This document shows positions 18,057 through 36,211 of a stretch of 64,000 nucleotides of DNA, in pieces; within the stretch, counting starts at the first letter, position 1; each line of letters starts with the position of its first letter. The translations under genes were made by a program, and so were the position numbers. This DNA comes from Streptomyces sp. CGMCC 4.7035. GTDB lineage: Bacteria; Actinomycetota; Actinomycetes; Streptomycetales; Streptomycetaceae. The notes beneath the pieces are model-generated. The model did not search any database. It had not been told where the DNA came from and saw only the letters and a program-made list of their open reading frames with translations. The stretch covers positions 868,001 through 932,000 of the forward strand of contig NZ_CP134053.1 of the NCBI RefSeq assembly GCF_031583065.1. The letters are read 5' to 3'.

Positions 18057-20183
18057 ATGGCTACCACTTCACTTGACCTGGCCAAGGTCCGCAACATCGG
18101 GATCATGGCCCACATCGACGCGGGCAAGACGACCACCACCGAGCGGATCCTGTTCTACACCGGTGTGTCGTACAAGATCGGTGAGGTCCACGACGGCGCT
18201 GCCACCATGGACTGGATGGAGCAGGAGCAGGAGCGTGGCATCACGATCACCTCTGCTGCCACCACCTGTCACTGGTCGCTGGAAGACGTCGACCACACCA
18301 TCAACATCATCGACACCCCGGGTCACGTCGACTTCACCGTCGAGGTGGAGCGCTCCCTGCGCGTGCTCGACGGTGCCGTGACGGTGTTCGACGGCGTCGC
18401 CGGTGTCGAGCCCCAGTCCGAGACGGTGTGGCGTCAGGCGGACCGCTACGGCGTTCCGCGTATCTGCTTCGTCAACAAGCTCGACCGGACCGGTGCCGAG
18501 TTCCACCGTTGCGTCGACATGATCTCTGACCGCCTGGGCGCTCAGCCGATCGTGATGCAGCTCCCGATCGGTGCCGAGGCCGACTTCAAGGGCGTCGTGG
18601 ACCTGGTCCGCATGAAGGCGCTCGTGTGGTCCGCCGAGGCCACCAAGGGCGAGATGTACGACGTCGTCGACATCCCGGACACGCACACCGAGGCTGCCGA
18701 GGAGTACCGCGGCAAGCTGCTCGAGGCCGTGGCCGAGAACGACGAAGAGATCATGGAGCTGTACCTGGAGGGCCAGGAGCCTTCCGAGGAGCAGCTGTAC
18801 GCCGCGATCCGTCGTATCACCATCGCGTCCGGCAAGGGCACCGGCACCACCGTGACCCCGGTGTTCTGCGGTACCGCGTTCAAGAACAAGGGTGTCCAGC
18901 CCCTGCTCGACGCGGTCGTGCGCTACCTGCCGTCCCCGGTCGACATCGAGGCCATCGAGGGCCACGACGTCAAGGACCCCGAGGTCGTCGTCAAGCGCAA
19001 GCCGTCCGACGAGGAGCCCCTCTCGGCGCTGGCGTTCAAGATCATGAGCGACCCGCACCTCGGCAAGCTCACCTTCGTCCGGGTTTACTCGGGCCGCCTG
19101 GAGTCCGGCTCTTCGGTGCTGAACTCCGTCAAGGGCAAGAAGGAGCGCATCGGCAAGATCTACCGCATGCACGCCAACAAGCGTGAGGAGATCGAGTCGG
19201 TGGGCGCCGGCGACATCGTCGCCGTCATGGGCCTGAAGCAGACCACCACCGGTGAGACGCTGGCCGACGACAAGAACCCGGTCATCCTGGAGTCCATGGA
19301 CTTCCCGGCGCCGGTCATCCAGGTCGCCATCGAGCCCAAGTCGAAGGGCGACCAGGAGAAGCTGGGCGTCGCGATCCAGCGCCTGGCCGAGGAGGACCCG
19401 TCCTTCCAGGTCCACTCGGACGAGGAGACCGGCCAGACCATCATCGGTGGTATGGGCGAGCTGCACCTCGAGGTGCTGGTCGACCGTATGCGCCGTGAGT
19501 TCAAGGTCGAGGCCAACGTCGGCAAGCCGCAGGTCGCGTACCGCGAGACGATCCGCAAGGCCGTCGAGCGCGTCGACTACACGCACAAGAAGCAGACTGG
19601 TGGTACCGGCCAGTTCGCCAAGGTGCAGATCGGCATCGAGCCGCTCGAGGGTGGCGACACCTCGTACGAGTTCGTGAACAAGGTGACCGGTGGTCGTATC
19701 CCGAAGGAGTACATCCCTTCGGTCGACGCCGGTGCGCAGGAGGCCATGCAGTTCGGCATCCTCGCCGGTTACGAGATGACCGGCGTGCGCGTCATCCTGC
19801 ACGATGGTGCGTACCACGAGGTCGACTCCTCCGAGCTCGCCTTCAAGATCGCCGGTTCGCAGGCCTTCAAGGAGGCCGCGCGCAAGGCCAGCCCCGTGCT
19901 GCTCGAGCCGATGATGGCCGTTGAGGTCACCACGCCCGAGGACTACATGGGTGAGGTCATCGGCGACATCAACTCCCGCCGTGGCCAGATCCAGGCCATG
20001 GAGGAGCGGGCCGGTGCCCGCGTCGTGAAGGGCCTCGTGCCCCTCTCGGAGATGTTCGGCTACGTCGGAGACCTCCGTAGCAAGACGTCGGGTCGCGCAA
20101 GCTACTCGATGCAGTTCGACTCCTACGCCGAGGTTCCGCGGAACGTCGCCGAGGAGATCATCGCGAAGGCCAAGGGCGAGTAA
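18057..20183 (+). CDS. fusA: Elongation factor G
   Basis: A 708-residue translocation GTPase. The P-loop [13 protein letters not shown], switch [10 protein letters not shown] and guanine-specificity NKLD are all present in the N-terminal G domain, followed by the usual domains II-V. It moves tRNAs and mRNA through the ribosome after peptide transfer and also acts in ribosome recycling. Third gene of the str operon. A long antisense open frame over the gene is only a GC-rich shadow. Confidence 0.98.
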
Positions 20184-20361: not shown

Positions 20362-21555
<1,194 letters not shown>

Positions 21556-29833: not shown

Positions 29834-29988
29834 GTCACTCAGCGTGGCCGTGCACGCCTACCGTTAACAGTGACGACGCCGATGCGTACGGTGACTGTCC
29901 GGCGGTTGTCCGGTGCTGTCCGGGCTTGTCGAGACCTGCCGTACGGGTAGGGGCGTCGCGGCACGGTCGTACGACGGAGGGGTGCGGG

Positions 29989-30864
29989 ATGTCGCTGGAC
30001 GGCGAGGCGGTACGGCTCAGGAGCGAGGCGGACGAGCCGGGGTGGGAGGTGGACCCGGACGACGACTGGGGGATCGCCGTCGTGGCCACTGTGGGACGGC
30101 AGTTGAAGCTGCGGCGGGAGGGGGTGGGGATGCGGGCCGCCGAGTTCGGGGCGGCGGTCGGCTACGGGGAGGACATGGTCTACAAGATCGAGGGCGGGAA
30201 GCGGATTCCTCGGCCCGACTATCTGGACAGGGCGGACGAGGTACTGGGGGCCGGTGGGTTGCTCTCGGCGATGAAGGAGGACGTGAAGAGGGTCCGTTAC
30301 CCGAAGAAGGTGCGGGACTTGGCTCAGGTGGAGGCCAGGGCGGTCGAGTTGGGCGTGTACGTGTGCCACAGCATCAGCGGGCTGCTGCAGACACCGGCGC
30401 ATGCCAGGGTCGCGTTCGAGTCACGACAGCCTCCGTACTCGGAGGATGAGGTGGAGCGGATGGTGGCCGCTCGCGTGGCCCGGCAGTCCATCTTCGAGAG
30501 GCAACCTGCCCCCTCGCTTAGCTTCGTGCTGGAGGAGGCACCACTGCGGCGTCCCCTCGGAGGCACAATGGTGTGGCGACAGCAGCTCGAACATCTGCTG
30601 GAGGTGGGCCAGTTGCGCAACGTCACGCTCCAGGTGATGCCGACGCACTGCGAGGTCCATCCCGGTCTGGACGGCAGGATCGAACTGCTGAAGTTCGAGG
30701 ACGGCACGGCAGTGGGACGCGCAGACGGCGCGTTCAACGGTCGGCCGACTACTGACCCGAGGCAGCTCCGCATCCTTGAGCTGCGCTATGGCACCATCCG
30801 GGCGCAGGCCCTCCCGCCACGGGAGTCGCTGGCCTTCATCGAGCAATTGCTGGGAGAAACATGA
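29989..30864 (+). CDS. XRE-family regulator with DUF5753 domain (WhiJ-like)
   Basis: About 291 residues. An N-terminal XRE helix-turn-helix (LKLRREGVGMRAAEFG, YKIEGGKRIPR) is followed by the DUF5753 domain (YVCHSISGLLQTPAHAR, FVLEEAPLRRPLGG, LQVMPTHCEVHPGLDG). ATG 29989 follows GGAGGGG (29976-29982). The stop overlaps the DUF397 start (ATGA), so the two are co-translated. Family members are thought to bind DNA, with the small acidic DUF397 partner modulating them. Confidence 0.9.
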   Translation: MSLDGEAVRLRSEADEPGWEVDPDDDWGIAVVATVGRQLKLRREGVGMRAAEFGAAVGYGEDMVYKIEGGKRIPRPDYLDRADEVLGAGGLLSAMKEDVKRVRYPKKVRDLAQVEARAVELGVYVCHSISGLLQTPAHARVAFESRQPPYSEDEVERMVAARVARQSIFERQPAPSLSFVLEEAPLRRPLGGTMVWRQQLEHLLEVGQLRNVTLQVMPTHCEVHPGLDGRIELLKFEDGTAVGRADGAFNGRPTTDPRQLRILELRYGTIRAQALPPRESLAFIEQLLGET

Positions 30865-31070
30865 ACTGCAAGGCCTCCGCCGGGGACGCCTCTGAACTGG
30901 CGTGGTTCAAGAGCAGCTACAGCGACGGTAACGAAGGCGACTCCTGCGTCGAGATCGCCACCACCCCCGGTACCGTCCACGTGCGCGACTCCAAGAACAT
31001 CGCCGGCCCCCGGCTCGCGCTCAAGCCAGAGGCCTGGGCCGACTTCGTGGCGTACGCCGCCGAGGGCTGA
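30861..31070 (+). CDS. DUF397 small protein
   Basis: 69 residues. LAWFKSSYSDGNEGDSCVEIA and VHVRDSK are the two signature stretches of DUF397, and the tail is LKPEAWADFVAYAAEG. It is translationally coupled (4-base overlap) to the WhiJ-like regulator and probably controls its activity. It ends 4 bases from the convergent RNA-repair gene. Confidence 0.9.
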   Translation: MNCKASAGDASELAWFKSSYSDGNEGDSCVEIATTPGTVHVRDSKNIAGPRLALKPEAWADFVAYAAEG

Positions 31071-31074
31071 GCGC

Positions 31075-33861
31075 TCACCTCAGGGTTGGTACCTCGCCCC
31101 CCTCAGCCCTCGTCAGCGTGACCCCCGTCAGGCCTCGCAGTCTGCGTTCCGCGACAACTGCCAGGTGGCCGGGGGTCGGCGGGGTGGAGCCCAGGCCGAT
31201 GGCGTAGCGGACGGGGTTCGTGGCGTAGGGGCGGGGCCATGCGTGGCAGTCGGGAACCGTTGCCGAGAGGTTGGTGACGAGGGCCCGCATCCTGCCCCGT
31301 ACCCGGCCCTCGTCCGCGTCCGCGCCCACCGTCACGACCGCCCAGGCCGCGTGGCGGCGGTGGAGCGGGGGAGGGGCGAGGAGTTCGGCCCAGGGGTACG
31401 GGTCCGGGCTCGCGTCCAGCAACTCCCAGGCGCGGAACAGCTCTTGGGTGATGAGGTCGCGCATGCCTGCCGTGACCTGGTCCGTGCAGGGGCGCATCGG
31501 GGCGGAGGGGGTCGTGATGGTGAGGGGGAGGGGCTGATCGCCCGCCCTCCCCACCGGCTCGCGCCAGTCCCAAGCCGCCCACGTCGCGAAGAAGTGCCGC
31601 AGGAGATCACCCGGTGGCAGGTCGCCCGCCTCGCTCGCGGTGCGGGCCGCCAGGACGGACCAGGCCAGGCCCGGCAGACCTCCGAACGGTGCCGAGTCCA
31701 GGCCCCGGGCCTTCGCCCATGCCTTGACCTGCGTGGCCAGCCGGGTGAAGGCGGGCCCGTGTGCGCCCACCGAGGCGACCACCGCGTCGGCATCGCTCAC
31801 CGCGCTGAGCGCGATCGCCGCCGCCTCGCCCAGCTCGGCCCGCCGGTCCACCGCCTCGGTGGGGTCCATCGAGCCGGTGGCGACCACGACCAGGTCCACA
31901 TCCAGCCCGTCGACCCGCAGCCGCAGGCCGGGTACGCGGGCCCCGACCACCTCGCGCACATCGGTTGCTTCGGGGATCGCGGAGGTCAACTGTTCCTGCA
32001 CGGCGGCGAGTTCGACCGTGCCGGGCAGTGCCGCCACCAGGTCCAGGTCCGCATCGGGCAGCGCGCAGCCCATGCGCCGGGAGCCGACGACATGCACGAC
32101 GCCGTCGGAGAGGGCGTCCTCGATGCGGCGGGTGATCCCCTCGGCCACCCGCTCCATGTCCTCCGCCCCGCCCTGCGCGGCCTCCTCCGTCCAGCGGACC
32201 TCTCCCGTCCCCAGCGCCACCGTGCCCCGTACCCGCATCGGCTCGTCTCCCCGCCGCGACAGCAGCGCCAGCTCGCCGACCCTGACCGGCATCGGCGTGA
32301 GCCGGGCCTCGCAGACTGCGGCCAGGGCGTTCGGGAAGGTGGTGCGGCCCAGGCTCAGGTGAGGGGTGAAGCCGGCGTGGCGGCCACGGCAGCGGGGGAA
32401 GTGGCGCAGGAGCGTGCTGTGCAACTCGGTCCACGGTTCCTCACCTGCGGCCGCCGGGTCGAGCCAGACGGTGGCGTAGTCCCGATGGCCGAACCAGTGC
32501 ACGCCCTCCAGCCGGGCGTCGAAGGGTGCCGTGGTGGCCGTGGTGGCCGTCGCGATCACCGATGCCGCCTGTTCGAAGGCGTGTTCCGGTACGAATCCGA
32601 AGAGCACGTTGACGTGTGGGGGCCAGCGGCGGATCTGCGGGTCGTGGTCCCGGCGGATGTCCTGAAGCGGCGGCCACAACTCCTGGGGTGGGATCCACGC
32701 CAGGGCCGTGCGGGGCGTCGGCTGTACGTCCAGACGGTCGAGGGCGTCCGACTCCGAAGCGTCCGGAGCATCCGCCGTCACCTCGACCCGCACACCGTAG
32801 TGATCGGAGATGTACAGCCCTTCCGCCGTGGGCTCGTCGCCGTACAGCGCGGCCCGCCGTACCCGCAGACCGTCCCCTCGCAGCAGCACCCGGTCCAGCC
32901 GGGAAGCCCGGCCGGTCAGGGACGCGACCGCGGCCAGCGGGTTGGTGCCCGGGTCGAAGGTCGGGGTCGTGTCGTGGGCGCCGTGCGTCTCGCTCCACGC
33001 GTCCCGCATCCCCAGCGTCAGCTGCGGTGTGTCACCGCCGTCGTTGAAGTCGCCGAGCAGGAGCAGATCGGCGTCCAGGCTTGCCAATCCCTCGGCGACA
33101 CGGGTCAGCTCGGCATCGCGGCGGCCGGCTCCGTTCTCGGAGTGGTCGCTGCTCAGATGCGTGGCCGCGACGACGAGGGGGCGCGTGCCCGCCTCCACGA
33201 CCAGCGCGGTCACCGCCTTGTGCGGGCCCAGTTCATGGTGCGCGGCCTCGCGGACGGGCAACCGGCTCAGGAGCAGCAGACCGCACTCGTCCACGTCCCG
33301 GCCCCGCGGGTCCGTCCCCAGCGTCCAGTCGGCCCGCACCCATGGCTCGCGCAGCAGCAGGGCGAGGAGTTCCGCCTCGACCTCCTGCAACGCGATCACG
33401 TCCACGTCGGCGTCGCGCAGGGCGCGCAGCAGCAGAGGCCTGCGCCGGGCGCTGTCGATGCGGTCGGCGTCGTACCGGTCCCAGAGGGTGTTCCAGGTGA
33501 GCACCCGCACACTGCCCGAGGCGACCCCGTGCGGCGAGCGTGTGGGCACCCAGTCCTCGCCGTCCCAGGCATGCGGCGTACGGGCCGTGAAGAACGGCGC
33601 CCGGAGCAGCCGAGCCTCCCGTACCCGCCCGGCATCGGTCGCGTCGATCCGGTCCACACCCGTGGTCCGGTCCCACACCAGCTCACCGTCGGCCTCGAAG
33701 AACAGCACCCGGTGCCAGGGGATCTCGCCTCCGGGCACGAACGCGGGCAACGGCACGCGCTTGGGCGCGGCCCCGCGCTGGAGGACGCCCAGCACGAAGC
33801 GGGCCGGGTCGAAGCGCGCGTCCCATTGCACCCGGTGATAGATCTCCTCGCTGGTACGCAC
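31075..33861 (-). CDS. Four-domain RNA-repair protein: DUF504/MJ1316-EEP-2H phosphoesterase-nucleotidyltransferase
   Basis: 928 residues. Residues 1-73 are a DUF504/MJ1316 domain ([26 protein letters not shown]). Residues 117-363 are an endonuclease/exonuclease/phosphatase domain with N124, E160 (ALQEVE), D271/N273 (LLGDFND) and the SDH triad at 352-354. Residues 400-560 form a 2H/LigT-like phosphoesterase with H416-V-N and H501-L-S; the first motif has Asn where Thr or Ser is usual. Residues 575-830 are a poly(A)-polymerase/OAS-like nucleotidyltransferase (GSRRMG at 593, catalytic Asp 605, 607 and 656). The C-terminus is unassigned. It lies 34 bases downstream of the RNA ligase-kinase gene on the same strand. 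The domains fit trimming, end healing and nucleotide addition on cleaved RNA. Domain calls are firm; the pathway is inferred. Confidence 0.87.
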
Positions 33862-33895
33862 CGTTCAGACCTCTCTCAGACCTTCCTCGGACCCC

Positions 33896-35557
33896 TCAGA
33901 CCTCTTCCTCGACGGTCCCGCTCGTCCCGATGTACCAGGTGCGATGCGCGTCGCCGGGATACGGCGGGCCGAAGCGGCGCAGCTGGGCGGTGAGCACCTC
34001 GGGCGGCACCGGGTGCTCGCGGCGGGCGTTGCGCCGTATCAGTTCGTCTTCGTCGACCAGGACCACGGCGTGCGTGGTCAGGGCGTCGCGGCGGTGGGCG
34101 ATCGCGTGCACGACCGAGCGCTGCTGCTTGTTGAGGGACGTGGCGTCCCACACCACGGTCCCTCCGGCGGCCAGGGCCCTGTCCAGCCGGTCGAGCCCCT
34201 CGCGCAGGACCTCCTGGTTGGCCCGCTGGTCGGCGCGTGCGCCGCGTGCCTCGCGCAGATCGTCCAGGGAGACGTACGCGTCGACGCCGGACAGCCCCCG
34301 GGCGAAGGTGCTCTTGCCGCTGCCTGCCGGGCCGACCATCTGGATCAGTTGCGGGAAGGCGCCGGACCGCCAGCGCCAGGTCGCCGCGACAGCCTCGTCG
34401 ACACCGCCGATCCGCCCCTGCGCGTACGCCTCCCGCGCCTCGGCCCGGCACCGCACGGCCGCGTCGGCCGGCAGCTCGGCGAACGCCTCCCGCAGCGCAC
34501 CCTCGTCCATGCCACCGATGTCCTCGACGTGCAGCGCCGACCACTCCACCTGTTCGCGTGCCTGGTCCGTGCCCGCTGTGGCCCGGGCGACCGCGTGCAG
34601 CAGACCCAGGTCGGCGGCGTAGGACAACCGCACCAGGCCGGCCCGCCGGTCCTTGTCCGGATACGGCCGGTGCAGCGCAGGGTTGAGCCCCACGAGATCG
34701 ACGACACGGCGGGCGAGCGGCATGCCCACCACGTCGGCGAGACGCGCCGCGAGACGCGCCCGTTGACCCTTGTGCAGCAGCGCGGCCAGTACGCCGGTGA
34801 GCCGCTCGTCCCCCGACCACGCGGCCGGATCGAACCGGTCGGCGGCCTGCGGATCCCCCTCGCCGGGCAACCCCAAGGCCGCGTCCAGCGCCGCCGCGTC
34901 GACAGGCGCACCCGAACGCACCGCCCACAGCACGGCCCCCGCTCCGAGTCCGTTCTCGACGACGGCGGCATGCATCCAGTGCGTGTCCGTCCGCACATGT
35001 CCGGCCCGCACCCACTTGGCCACACGCTGCCCGAACTCCTCCGCGCCGAACCCGGCCACGACCCGGACGACGTATCCCTCCTGCCGCCCGGGATCCAGCC
35101 GCAGAGCGCGCAGCGCCCGCTCGTCGAACACGCCTCGCCACAGCACGCGCGGCACGGGGATGCCGAGCCCGCGCAGAAACGCCACCGTCCGGTCCCAGTC
35201 CAGGCAGCGGCCGGCGGCGTCCCACACAGAGAAGCCGTAGAAATAGCTCTCCAGGGTGTCGTACGCGATCGAGTGCCGGGCGTACATGTTCTCCCCGCAC
35301 ACCCGCCAGCCCTCGGGTATGGCGTGGCCGATGCGTGCCTGGAGTGCCTTGACCCAGGTGCGGGAGGGGTGGTGGGCCGAGTCGAGCGAGCGGGCGTGCA
35401 GGCCGTCGGAGTACAGCGTGGTGTTCTCGCCGTCGAGCTTCTCGGTGACGACGACCTCGCGGCCGCGCAGCCCGGCCAGGTCGGTGACCCGGAGGTCATC
35501 GGCACTCGCGCCGGGGGACCAGGGCAGATGCCGGGTCCGCGGATACTGCGTACGCAT
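33896..35557 (-). CDS. RNA ligase-polynucleotide kinase fusion
   Basis: 553 residues. The N-terminal half is an ATP-dependent RNA ligase: nucleophile Lys40 in EKLDGEN (motif I), YFYGFSVWD (about 105-113), EGYVVR (160-165, motif IV) and VAKWVR (179-184, motif V). A helical middle region (about 210-390) is unassigned. The C-terminal third is a P-loop kinase (GPAGSGKSTFA at 409, VVWDATSLNK at 468) resembling 5'-OH polynucleotide kinases. Together they could phosphorylate a 5' end and seal it to a 3' OH. ATG 35557 has a GGGGGA site upstream. First gene of a two-gene operon with the four-domain protein, which could supply 3'-end healing and trimming. Confidence 0.88.
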   Translation of the reverse strand: MRTQYPRTRHLPWSPGASADDLRVTDLAGLRGREVVVTEKLDGENTTLYSDGLHARSLDSAHHPSRTWVKALQARIGHAIPEGWRVCGENMYARHSIAYDTLESYFYGFSVWDAAGRCLDWDRTVAFLRGLGIPVPRVLWRGVFDERALRALRLDPGRQEGYVVRVVAGFGAEEFGQRVAKWVRAGHVRTDTHWMHAAVVENGLGAGAVLWAVRSGAPVDAAALDAALGLPGEGDPQAADRFDPAAWSGDERLTGVLAALLHKGQRARLAARLADVVGMPLARRVVDLVGLNPALHRPYPDKDRRAGLVRLSYAADLGLLHAVARATAGTDQAREQVEWSALHVEDIGGMDEGALREAFAELPADAAVRCRAEAREAYAQGRIGGVDEAVAATWRWRSGAFPQLIQMVGPAGSGKSTFARGLSGVDAYVSLDDLREARGARADQRANQEVLREGLDRLDRALAAGGTVVWDATSLNKQQRSVVHAIAHRRDALTTHAVVLVDEDELIRRNARREHPVPPEVLTAQLRRFGPPYPGDAHRTWYIGTSGTVEEEV

Positions 35558-35708: not shown

Positions 35709-35867
35709 TCACCAGCCGAGGTGAGTGAGACTTCGGCCGAGCACGTACGGTGCCTCCGCCGCCCTGACCACCTCGGCGGCCTTGCGTTCCACCTCGGCGA
35801 GGAATGCGGGCGGGGCTGTGCGGGCGGCTTCCTCCGCGCCGAAGGCGTATTCCCAGGTCCAGCTCAA
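35709..35867 (-). CDS. Short toxin-like partner of the DUF6247 gene, probably truncated
   Basis: TTG 35867 overlaps the stop of the DUF6247 gene (TTGA). The frame reads SWTWEYAFG, then PPAFLAEVERKAAEVV, and stops after 52 residues. This resembles the first half of the roughly 80-100 residue proteins, possibly RelE-like, that often follow DUF6247 genes in Streptomyces. The second half, with its beta-strands and catalytic positions, is missing. It is either a remnant or an unusually short member. Confidence 0.4.
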   Translation of the reverse strand: MSWTWEYAFGAEEAARTAPPAFLAEVERKAAEVVRAAEAPYVLGRSLTHLGW

Positions 35868-36211
35868 GTGCGTACTGCCTTCATGGCCTCGTCCAGGACG
35901 CCACTCAGCTCCCGCAGGGCGTCCCGGGCGATGGCCGCGTTCTCATGCTCCAGGTTGCTCTTGGTCCGGGCGTGTCGGGCGGCGAGGTCGGGGCGGCGGG
36001 CGACCTCGATGTCCCTGGCCCAGGCCAGGACCCAGCTCCGCACCGGGCTGAGGGACTGCCACTCCACGGCCTTGGCGAACGCCTCGTCCTTCGTCCGCTG
36101 CATCTCCGGCAGGCGCCCGGGATCGACTACGGCGAGGGCGGCCCGCAGGGCGTCAGGGGTCTGCTCGGGGCGCGGCACCAGCTCGTGTCCGTGGTCGGCC
36201 TGCGTGCTCAT
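35864..36211 (-). CDS. DUF6247-like protein, possible antitoxin
   Basis: 115 residues from ATG 36211, preceded by a near-perfect GGGAGGA site. TPDALRAALAVVDPGRLPEM, then a central helix with SPVRSWVLAWARDIEVARRP, matches my recollection of DUF6247 proteins; that assignment should be checked. No catalytic residues are evident. The next frame overlaps its stop, as in toxin-antitoxin pairs. It reads away from the S10 operon. Confidence 0.6.
   Translation of the reverse strand: MSTQADHGHELVPRPEQTPDALRAALAVVDPGRLPEMQRTKDEAFAKAVEWQSLSPVRSWVLAWARDIEVARRPDLAARHARTKSNLEHENAAIARDALRELSGVLDEAMKAVRT

Follow-up and report, generated by a model that had tools for sequence, protein, structure and literature searches.

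The DRB0100-DRB0099-DRB0098 operon of Deinococcus radiodurans encodes a ligase, a PARG macrodomain protein and an HD-Pnk protein (an HD phosphohydrolase plus a kinase). DRB0100 was measured to act as an adenylyltransferase and DRB0098 as a 5' kinase (PMC1997131), while DRB0099 is described as removing ADP-ribose from RNA (PMC11833690). The bacterial Pnkp1-Rnl-Hen1 complex heals ends and seals RNA that was cut by ribotoxins (PMC4411300), and RNA ligases of jumbo phages are accompanied by 2H, kinase, phosphatase and polymerase-beta nucleotidyltransferase (RlaP) proteins (PMC7824862). Here, we describe two adjacent genes of Streptomyces sp. CGMCC 4.7035, which are located within a 64,000-nucleotide stretch of contig NZ_CP134053.1 (positions 868,001 to 932,000), referred to as the window. 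Their products, termed LigKin and RepairPAP, are predicted, with a probability of about 60%, to heal and seal RNA together, the task of 3'-end healing having passed from the ligase-kinase to RepairPAP.

LigKin (33896-35557; 553 amino acids, ATG start) contains an RNA ligase, a probable decayed HD and a polynucleotide kinase domain, and RepairPAP (31075-33861; 928 amino acids, GTG start) combines MJ1316, EEP, 2H and eukaryote-type poly(A) polymerase domains. Both genes, with all of their domains, are encoded on the minus strand, with LigKin first and RepairPAP downstream, separated by an intergenic gap of 34 bp (33862-33895). Open reading frames and Pfam searches thus confirm the original prediction, made from the letters of the window, of an RNA ligase-kinase fusion that is followed after 34 bases by a four-domain protein. 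The GC content of the genes is 73%, and about 90% at third codon positions, as is usual for Streptomyces genes. Chance open reading frames are excluded because each protein has 119 relatives among the matches listed, which are 65-88% identical for RepairPAP (a few over partial length) and 72-89% identical for LigKin. The relatives of RepairPAP are named either 'poly(A) polymerase' or 'RNA repair domain-containing protein' in the databases.

Pfam domain calls are above the curated cut-offs unless stated otherwise. The ligase domain of LigKin (residues 33-183; 35009-35461) matches PF09414 (RNA_ligase) with an E-value of 8.4e-36, and Lys40 within its EKLDGEN motif is invariant in 20/20 sequences compared. 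The P-loop 5'-OH polynucleotide kinase domain (residues 404-532; 33962-34348) matches AAA_33 (8.7e-22), and the match lists of structure searches with the LigKin model were filled by the kinase, consistent with this call. Residues 1-204 show 59% identity to the ligase gene of D. radiodurans MP1, which is taken to be DRB0100 from the operon order, and the part beyond the ligase is 33% identical to DRB0098 over 320 amino acids. DRB0100 and DRB0098 are the closest published relatives. PF09414 matches two further proteins of the Streptomyces genome: a 383-amino-acid protein that is extended at its N-terminus and probably represents a second RNA ligase (L002:946-2097, at 5.52 Mb), and a protein resembling an ATP-dependent DNA ligase (L003:886-2424, at 4.77 Mb).

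Between ligase and kinase lies a helical domain (residues 206-400, or more narrowly about 240-400; 34358-34942) that was absent from the domain list of the original prediction and is probably an HD phosphohydrolase without metal ligands. Deinococcus HD-Pnk aligns through this region in BLASTP with 31-33% identity, and in a hidden Markov model test of the domain, 123 of 157 LigKins matched at E-values up to 10, compared with 3 reversed and 2 shuffled controls. A first structure model of LigKin was poor, with a predicted local distance difference test score (pLDDT) of 63.5, whereas an AlphaFold2 model of residues 206-553 reached a mean pLDDT of 89.2 and is helical in its central part. Pfam returned no HD match in LigKin, and an HD fold was absent from the rows shown of the structure searches, which neither supports nor excludes HD ancestry as the kinase crowded these lists. 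All 25 full-length HD-Pnk rows, which represent 19 distinct genes, have a complete set of HD metal ligands, but 157/157 LigKins lack the first His and the last Asp of this set, and the same loss is seen in the 29 readable of 30 LigKin loci from the genome surveys. With these ligands not intact, LigKin would descend from the ligase and HD-Pnk module without being a full member of it: probably a fusion of ligase and HD-Pnk in which the HD part has decayed through loss of metal ligands.

RepairPAP starts with an MJ1316 domain (residues 1-65; 33667-33861; PF04457, 1.8e-18), for which a function in RNA cyclic-end recognition is named by Pfam and in PMC6514570, citing Burroughs and Aravind 2016. It is followed by an EEP phosphatase/nuclease domain (residues 121-354; 32800-33501; PF03372 (Exo_endo_phos), 6.5e-20) and a 2H phosphoesterase domain (residues 391-540; 32242-32691; PF13563 (2_5_RNA_ligase2), 6.5e-31). 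2H phosphoesterases are described as carrying two H-x-[ST] motifs (PMC5283653); in RepairPAP, the second motif, HLS, fits this pattern, while the first is HVN, with N in 10/13 and T in 3/13 sequences. The C-terminal region (residues 586-928; 31075-32106) was assigned by phmmer, profile and Asp triad. Pfam detects PAP_central (residues 708-770, 1.6e-8), but the matches to the polymerase palm (NTP_transf_2, MTPAP-like, PAP_NTPase) fall below the cut-off and the catalytic palm was instead identified by comparison with solved structures, in which a 13-sequence profile matched poly(A) polymerase gamma at 1.7e-64. In agreement, phmmer matches residues 586-867 to human poly(A) polymerase gamma at 5.3e-18, and a GS...DxD...D nucleotidyltransferase triad is present together with the PAP central domain. 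These comparisons identify the nucleotidyltransferase specifically as a eukaryote-type poly(A) polymerase. All six domains originally proposed for the two proteins, including the ligase and nucleotidyltransferase folds, are thereby supported.

The residues expected at the active sites of the ligase, EEP, 2H and polymerase domains are kept in both proteins. For RepairPAP, conservation was checked in a set of 20 Streptomyces sequences and in a mixed set of 13 (nine cyanobacterial, one Nonomuraea and three Streptomyces sequences). The EEP residues N124, E160, H235, D271, N273, D353 and H354 and the 2H residues H416 and H501 are kept in 20/20 and 13/13 sequences, respectively. D605 and D607 of the polymerase are present throughout both sets and D656 in 19/20 and 12/13, with Asn replacing this third Asp in a single Streptomyces copy that is present in both sets. 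Fusions of MJ1316, EEP, 2H and nucleotidyltransferase domains are probably listed by Burroughs and Aravind in 2016. A literature search of open-access papers found no title or abstract on the LigKin-RepairPAP pair, and absence from print is not claimed.

The D. radiodurans operon resembles LigKin in the order of ligase and HD-Pnk, but its genes are separate, its HD ligands are intact, the PARG gene is inserted in between and RepairPAP is not found among the annotated neighbours. Deinococcus was also absent among the eight plasmid records that match RepairPAP (Deinococcus chromosomes were not searched). Instead of the components of Pnkp1-Rnl-Hen1, LigKin and RepairPAP use 2H/EEP and poly(A) polymerase domains, and no family match to the Hen1 methyltransferase or the metallophosphoesterase was detected in the two proteins up to an E-value of 0.1, the rest of the genome being unsearched. 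For the jumbo-phage RlaP systems, the same sequence of events is predicted, in which cyclic ends are opened, dephosphorylated and refilled before sealing (PMC7824862). In these phages, however, RlaP works alongside the ligases, whereas RepairPAP carries a eukaryote-type poly(A) polymerase in one chain with MJ1316, EEP and 2H. Against phage records, no match covered 80% of the length of LigKin, and the 20 matches listed, of 32 in total, span only approximately residues 1-214. For RepairPAP, no match was found among 50,697 phage records and only two weak single-domain matches in viral contigs; phage-borne mobility was therefore rejected.

The two genes are tightly associated in Actinobacteria. 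In 200 Streptomyces genomes (95% completeness limit), RepairPAP was counted only where the matches include its N-terminal or EEP part. On this basis, LigKin is present in 41 and RepairPAP in 43 genomes, and all 41 LigKin genomes also carry RepairPAP (Fisher p 1.1e-40), in line with the co-occurrence that was expected for the pair. Exceptions are G372, which has RepairPAP without LigKin, and G348, in which RepairPAP is truncated; one of the 41 (G481) has only fragments of both genes, and the LigKin matches are split or rearranged in some genomes, e.g., G305, G385 and G398. In G305, the ligase half is located at 8.84 Mb and the kinase half together with RepairPAP at 6.01 Mb, representing either a split gene or a second copy. 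The 32 genomes that were set aside from a total of 75 with RepairPAP matches match only within approximately residues 340-580, the 2H region. These matches (e.g., G399:C1:1363739-1364284) show about 55-67% identity, some in frames with stops, and are probably stand-alone 2H relatives.

The distribution is patchy. A survey of 296 genomes of the phylum at an E-value of 1e-20 detected RepairPAP in three and the ligase in four; MJ1316 was found in the same three genomes only, all of the genus of the window, and in an even sample of the phylum RepairPAP occurs in 1/192 genera. Pairs are also present in Embleya, Nonomuraea and other actinobacterial families. A genome scan of about 85 thousand species, which is a sample built from the best 80 of 191 relatives, yielded at least 78 loci. 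LigKin sequence directly precedes RepairPAP in 44 of the 47 actinobacterial loci listed, five of which show only the C-terminal part of LigKin because the contig ends there. With inferred starts, the gap in these 44 loci ranges from -14 to +19 bp, and a 1-base overlap is most common (19 loci). RepairPAP occurs without any LigKin match in Streptomyces sp. ISL-100, and in two Actinoplanes it occurs without LigKin but with a distant stand-alone ligase. In the one of these two loci that was tested by Pfam (L215:1471-2986), the DRB0100-like ligase adjoins a kinase-HAD phosphatase (PF25109).

RepairPAP proteins with all four parts were found, among the loci listed, in Cyanobacteria, Bacteroidota, Myxococcota and Actinomycetota. 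The partners in Cyanobacteria, as in a small number of further lineages, are a separate ligase and HD-Pnk. The cyanobacterial system contains the same three units, with a RepairPAP that is 30-31% identical in full-length alignment, but it differs in that ligase and HD-Pnk are separate, the HD is intact and the genes are unlinked in many genomes. Two genes encoding proteins of about 262 and 370-411 amino acids directly precede RepairPAP in 7/16 cyanobacterial loci listed; two of the other nine loci begin less than 2 kb upstream of RepairPAP. Pfam identified RNA_ligase in 2/2 and HD plus AAA_33 in 3/3 sampled upstream genes, while the remaining assignments rely on tblastn and genome searches. 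All 15 RepairPAP-bearing cyanobacterial genomes that were searched also carry ligase and HD-Pnk (the 16th, the genome of fragment L101, was not searched), usually side by side when located elsewhere. Ligase and HD-Pnk are likewise adjacent in Nannocystis, in a Polyangia and a proteobacterial metagenome-assembled genome and in Microscilla, and are present but apart in a Cytophagales metagenome-assembled genome; the Microscilla and Cytophagales ligases are clear only with an actinobacterial query. In three myxobacterial loci (L093:8725-9504, L095:1566-2345 and L097:8573-9364), a Sir2 gene is located directly upstream of RepairPAP, with no ligase or HD-Pnk seen nearby. Some phage sirtuins have been proposed to remove RNA 2'-phosphates in repair (PMC9503650).

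The intact and the decayed HD domains differ in their association with RepairPAP. Among 120 genomes from one cyanobacterial order, 17 have a ligase and 17 an HD-Pnk, and both occur together in 16. RepairPAP is found in nine, including a 2H-region fragment with stops (G565) and a C-terminal fragment (G621); eight of the nine have HD-Pnk (p 2.4e-7 over the 120 genomes) and seven also the ligase. However, 9/16 genomes with ligase and HD-Pnk lack RepairPAP, and all six HD ligands are present in eight of these nine; in the ninth, G554, HD-Pnk is truncated at its start and the ligase frame contains stops. By comparison, no LigKin genome among the 41 Streptomyces lacks RepairPAP. Since live-HD genomes can do without RepairPAP while LigKin genomes do not, the pattern is most simply explained if HD and RepairPAP have overlapping functions in healing 3' ends, with the HD version lost in actinobacteria.

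The domains suggest a possible order of repair. The MJ1316 domain of RepairPAP would bind RNA whose broken end carries a 2',3'-cyclic phosphate, 2H would open the cyclic phosphate and EEP would remove the remaining phosphate, leaving a clean 3'-OH from which the poly(A) polymerase domain could replace any missing nucleotides. The kinase of LigKin would phosphorylate the 5'-OH and the ligase would then seal, whereas the HD domain, the presumed 3' healer in HD-Pnk relatives, would now be structural only. The most likely natural substrate is tRNA or another ribonuclease-cut RNA. ANGEL2, which we take to be an EEP-family enzyme, provides a parallel. It is reported to strip terminal RNA phosphates before mitochondrial polyadenylation (PMC9525292), and we propose that the same handover takes place inside RepairPAP. 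The original prediction of a complete RNA-repair kit holds in that repair is the most likely role and the genes form an operon, but its nucleotidyltransferase is a poly(A) polymerase and its ligase-kinase likely a ligase-HD-Pnk fusion. As LigKin probably holds a dead HD, the kit would be redistributed between the two proteins.

Several observations weigh against this assignment. Only 2/157 LigKins scored below an E-value of 0.01 in the hidden Markov model test, and hhalign comparison of the central domain with HD-Pnk gave probabilities of 2.0% and 21.8%, against 0.2-3.5% for three unrelated controls; by profile comparison alone, the case for HD ancestry is weak. In the data given in PMC1997131, the HD domain of DRB0098 was not shown to be a 3' phosphatase in vitro and HD mutants kept activity. 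The EEP profile is nearer to TDP2 (5.3e-16) than to CCR4-type enzymes such as CNOT6L (3.7e-6), which makes its substrate uncertain and its phosphatase role a working choice. LigKin is not beside RepairPAP in 3/47 actinobacterial loci listed, and in eight Myxococcales genomes with RepairPAP, HD-Pnk gave no match and a ligase is clear in at most one (G507). Finally, because LigKin and RepairPAP form one operon in actinobacteria, they may occur together through co-inheritance and not because one needs the other.

This linkage can be taken further: the genes might simply be inherited as one operon, with HD decaying neutrally and RepairPAP serving its own role, e.g., tailing cyclic-phosphate RNAs for decay. 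In 44/44 actinobacterial loci listed with both genes, these overlap or are at most 19 bp apart (inferred starts), and RepairPAP exists without LigKin in the two Actinoplanes, eight Myxococcales and one Streptomyces genome. Linkage is a real alternative, but we give it a low probability, since the cyanobacterial genes co-occur although often unlinked, and since the tested Actinoplanes locus has its ligase beside a kinase-HAD phosphatase. Similarly improbable is a housekeeping function, in which damage is not reversed but particular RNAs are matured or circularised, or intermediates of decay are tailed and recycled. Such a role would agree with the lack of a match to any PADLOC model for anti-phage defence, on which membership in a known defence system was rejected, and with the neighbourhood of the pair, in which no family recurs in more than 9/47 actinobacterial loci listed (no toxin-family screen was made), and simple sealing has no obvious need for a poly(A) polymerase. 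On the other hand, 2H and kinase imply damaged ends, and the presence in 43/200 Streptomyces, 9/120 genomes of the cyanobacterial order and 1/192 genera of the phylum fits an accessory system better.

The least probable explanation is DNA end repair following irradiation or oxidation, a role that was formerly suggested for the D. radiodurans operon. DRB0100 and DRB0098 are radiation-induced and were called part of a putative DNA repair operon (PMC1997131), and the EEP domain is closest to TDP2. Yet DRB0100 failed to ligate DNA in the assays reported there, alone or with its operon partners, and RNA is indicated by each of the 2H, MJ1316 and eukaryote-type poly(A) polymerase domains. A tentative variant of the heal-and-seal system, less likely than not, is a cut-and-rebuild route in which RepairPAP would trim or dephosphorylate the 3' end and regrow it with its polymerase before LigKin seals; the actinobacterial HD would have died once healing was fully handed over, making the pair obligatory.

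In the window, the pair is located between the str genes (at about 17-21.6 kb), which presumably include fusA (18057-20183) and tuf (20362-21555), and rpsJ (36777). The location between the str and S10 operons was predicted correctly for this window but is not general: rpsJ or tuf is near the pair in 10/49 actinobacterial loci (some with short flanks), all of them Streptomyces. The position is thus that of one clade and no functional tie to translation genes. Convergent to RepairPAP lie an HTH_31/DUF5753 regulator and a DUF397 gene (29983-31070, plus strand), the latter terminating 4 bp before it would reach the stop codon of RepairPAP. Upstream, at 35709-36211 on the minus strand, a DUF6247-like open reading frame overlaps a 52-codon open reading frame. 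The suspected toxin remnant could not be substantiated, because the best Pfam E-value of the 52-codon frame is 0.22 and the DUF6247-like frame reaches 16.7 bits where the cut-off is 26.9. On these scores, and with no neighbour family in more than 9/47 actinobacterial loci, a toxin-antitoxin partner was rejected as unsupported.

RNA heal-and-seal systems of this kind are already known; what is added here is the decay of the HD domain, the co-occurrence of the three units across phyla and the contrast between live and dead HD. The pair offers a ready two-protein system for studying how bacteria rebuild, and not merely reseal, cut RNA, and the natural experiment of live versus dead HD predicts which domain performs 3' healing. 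The proposed function would assign a role to the MJ1316 domain and to a large family whose members carry no annotation beyond 'poly(A) polymerase' or 'RNA repair domain-containing protein'; it further hints at what may be missing from the radiation-induced DRB0098-0100 operon.

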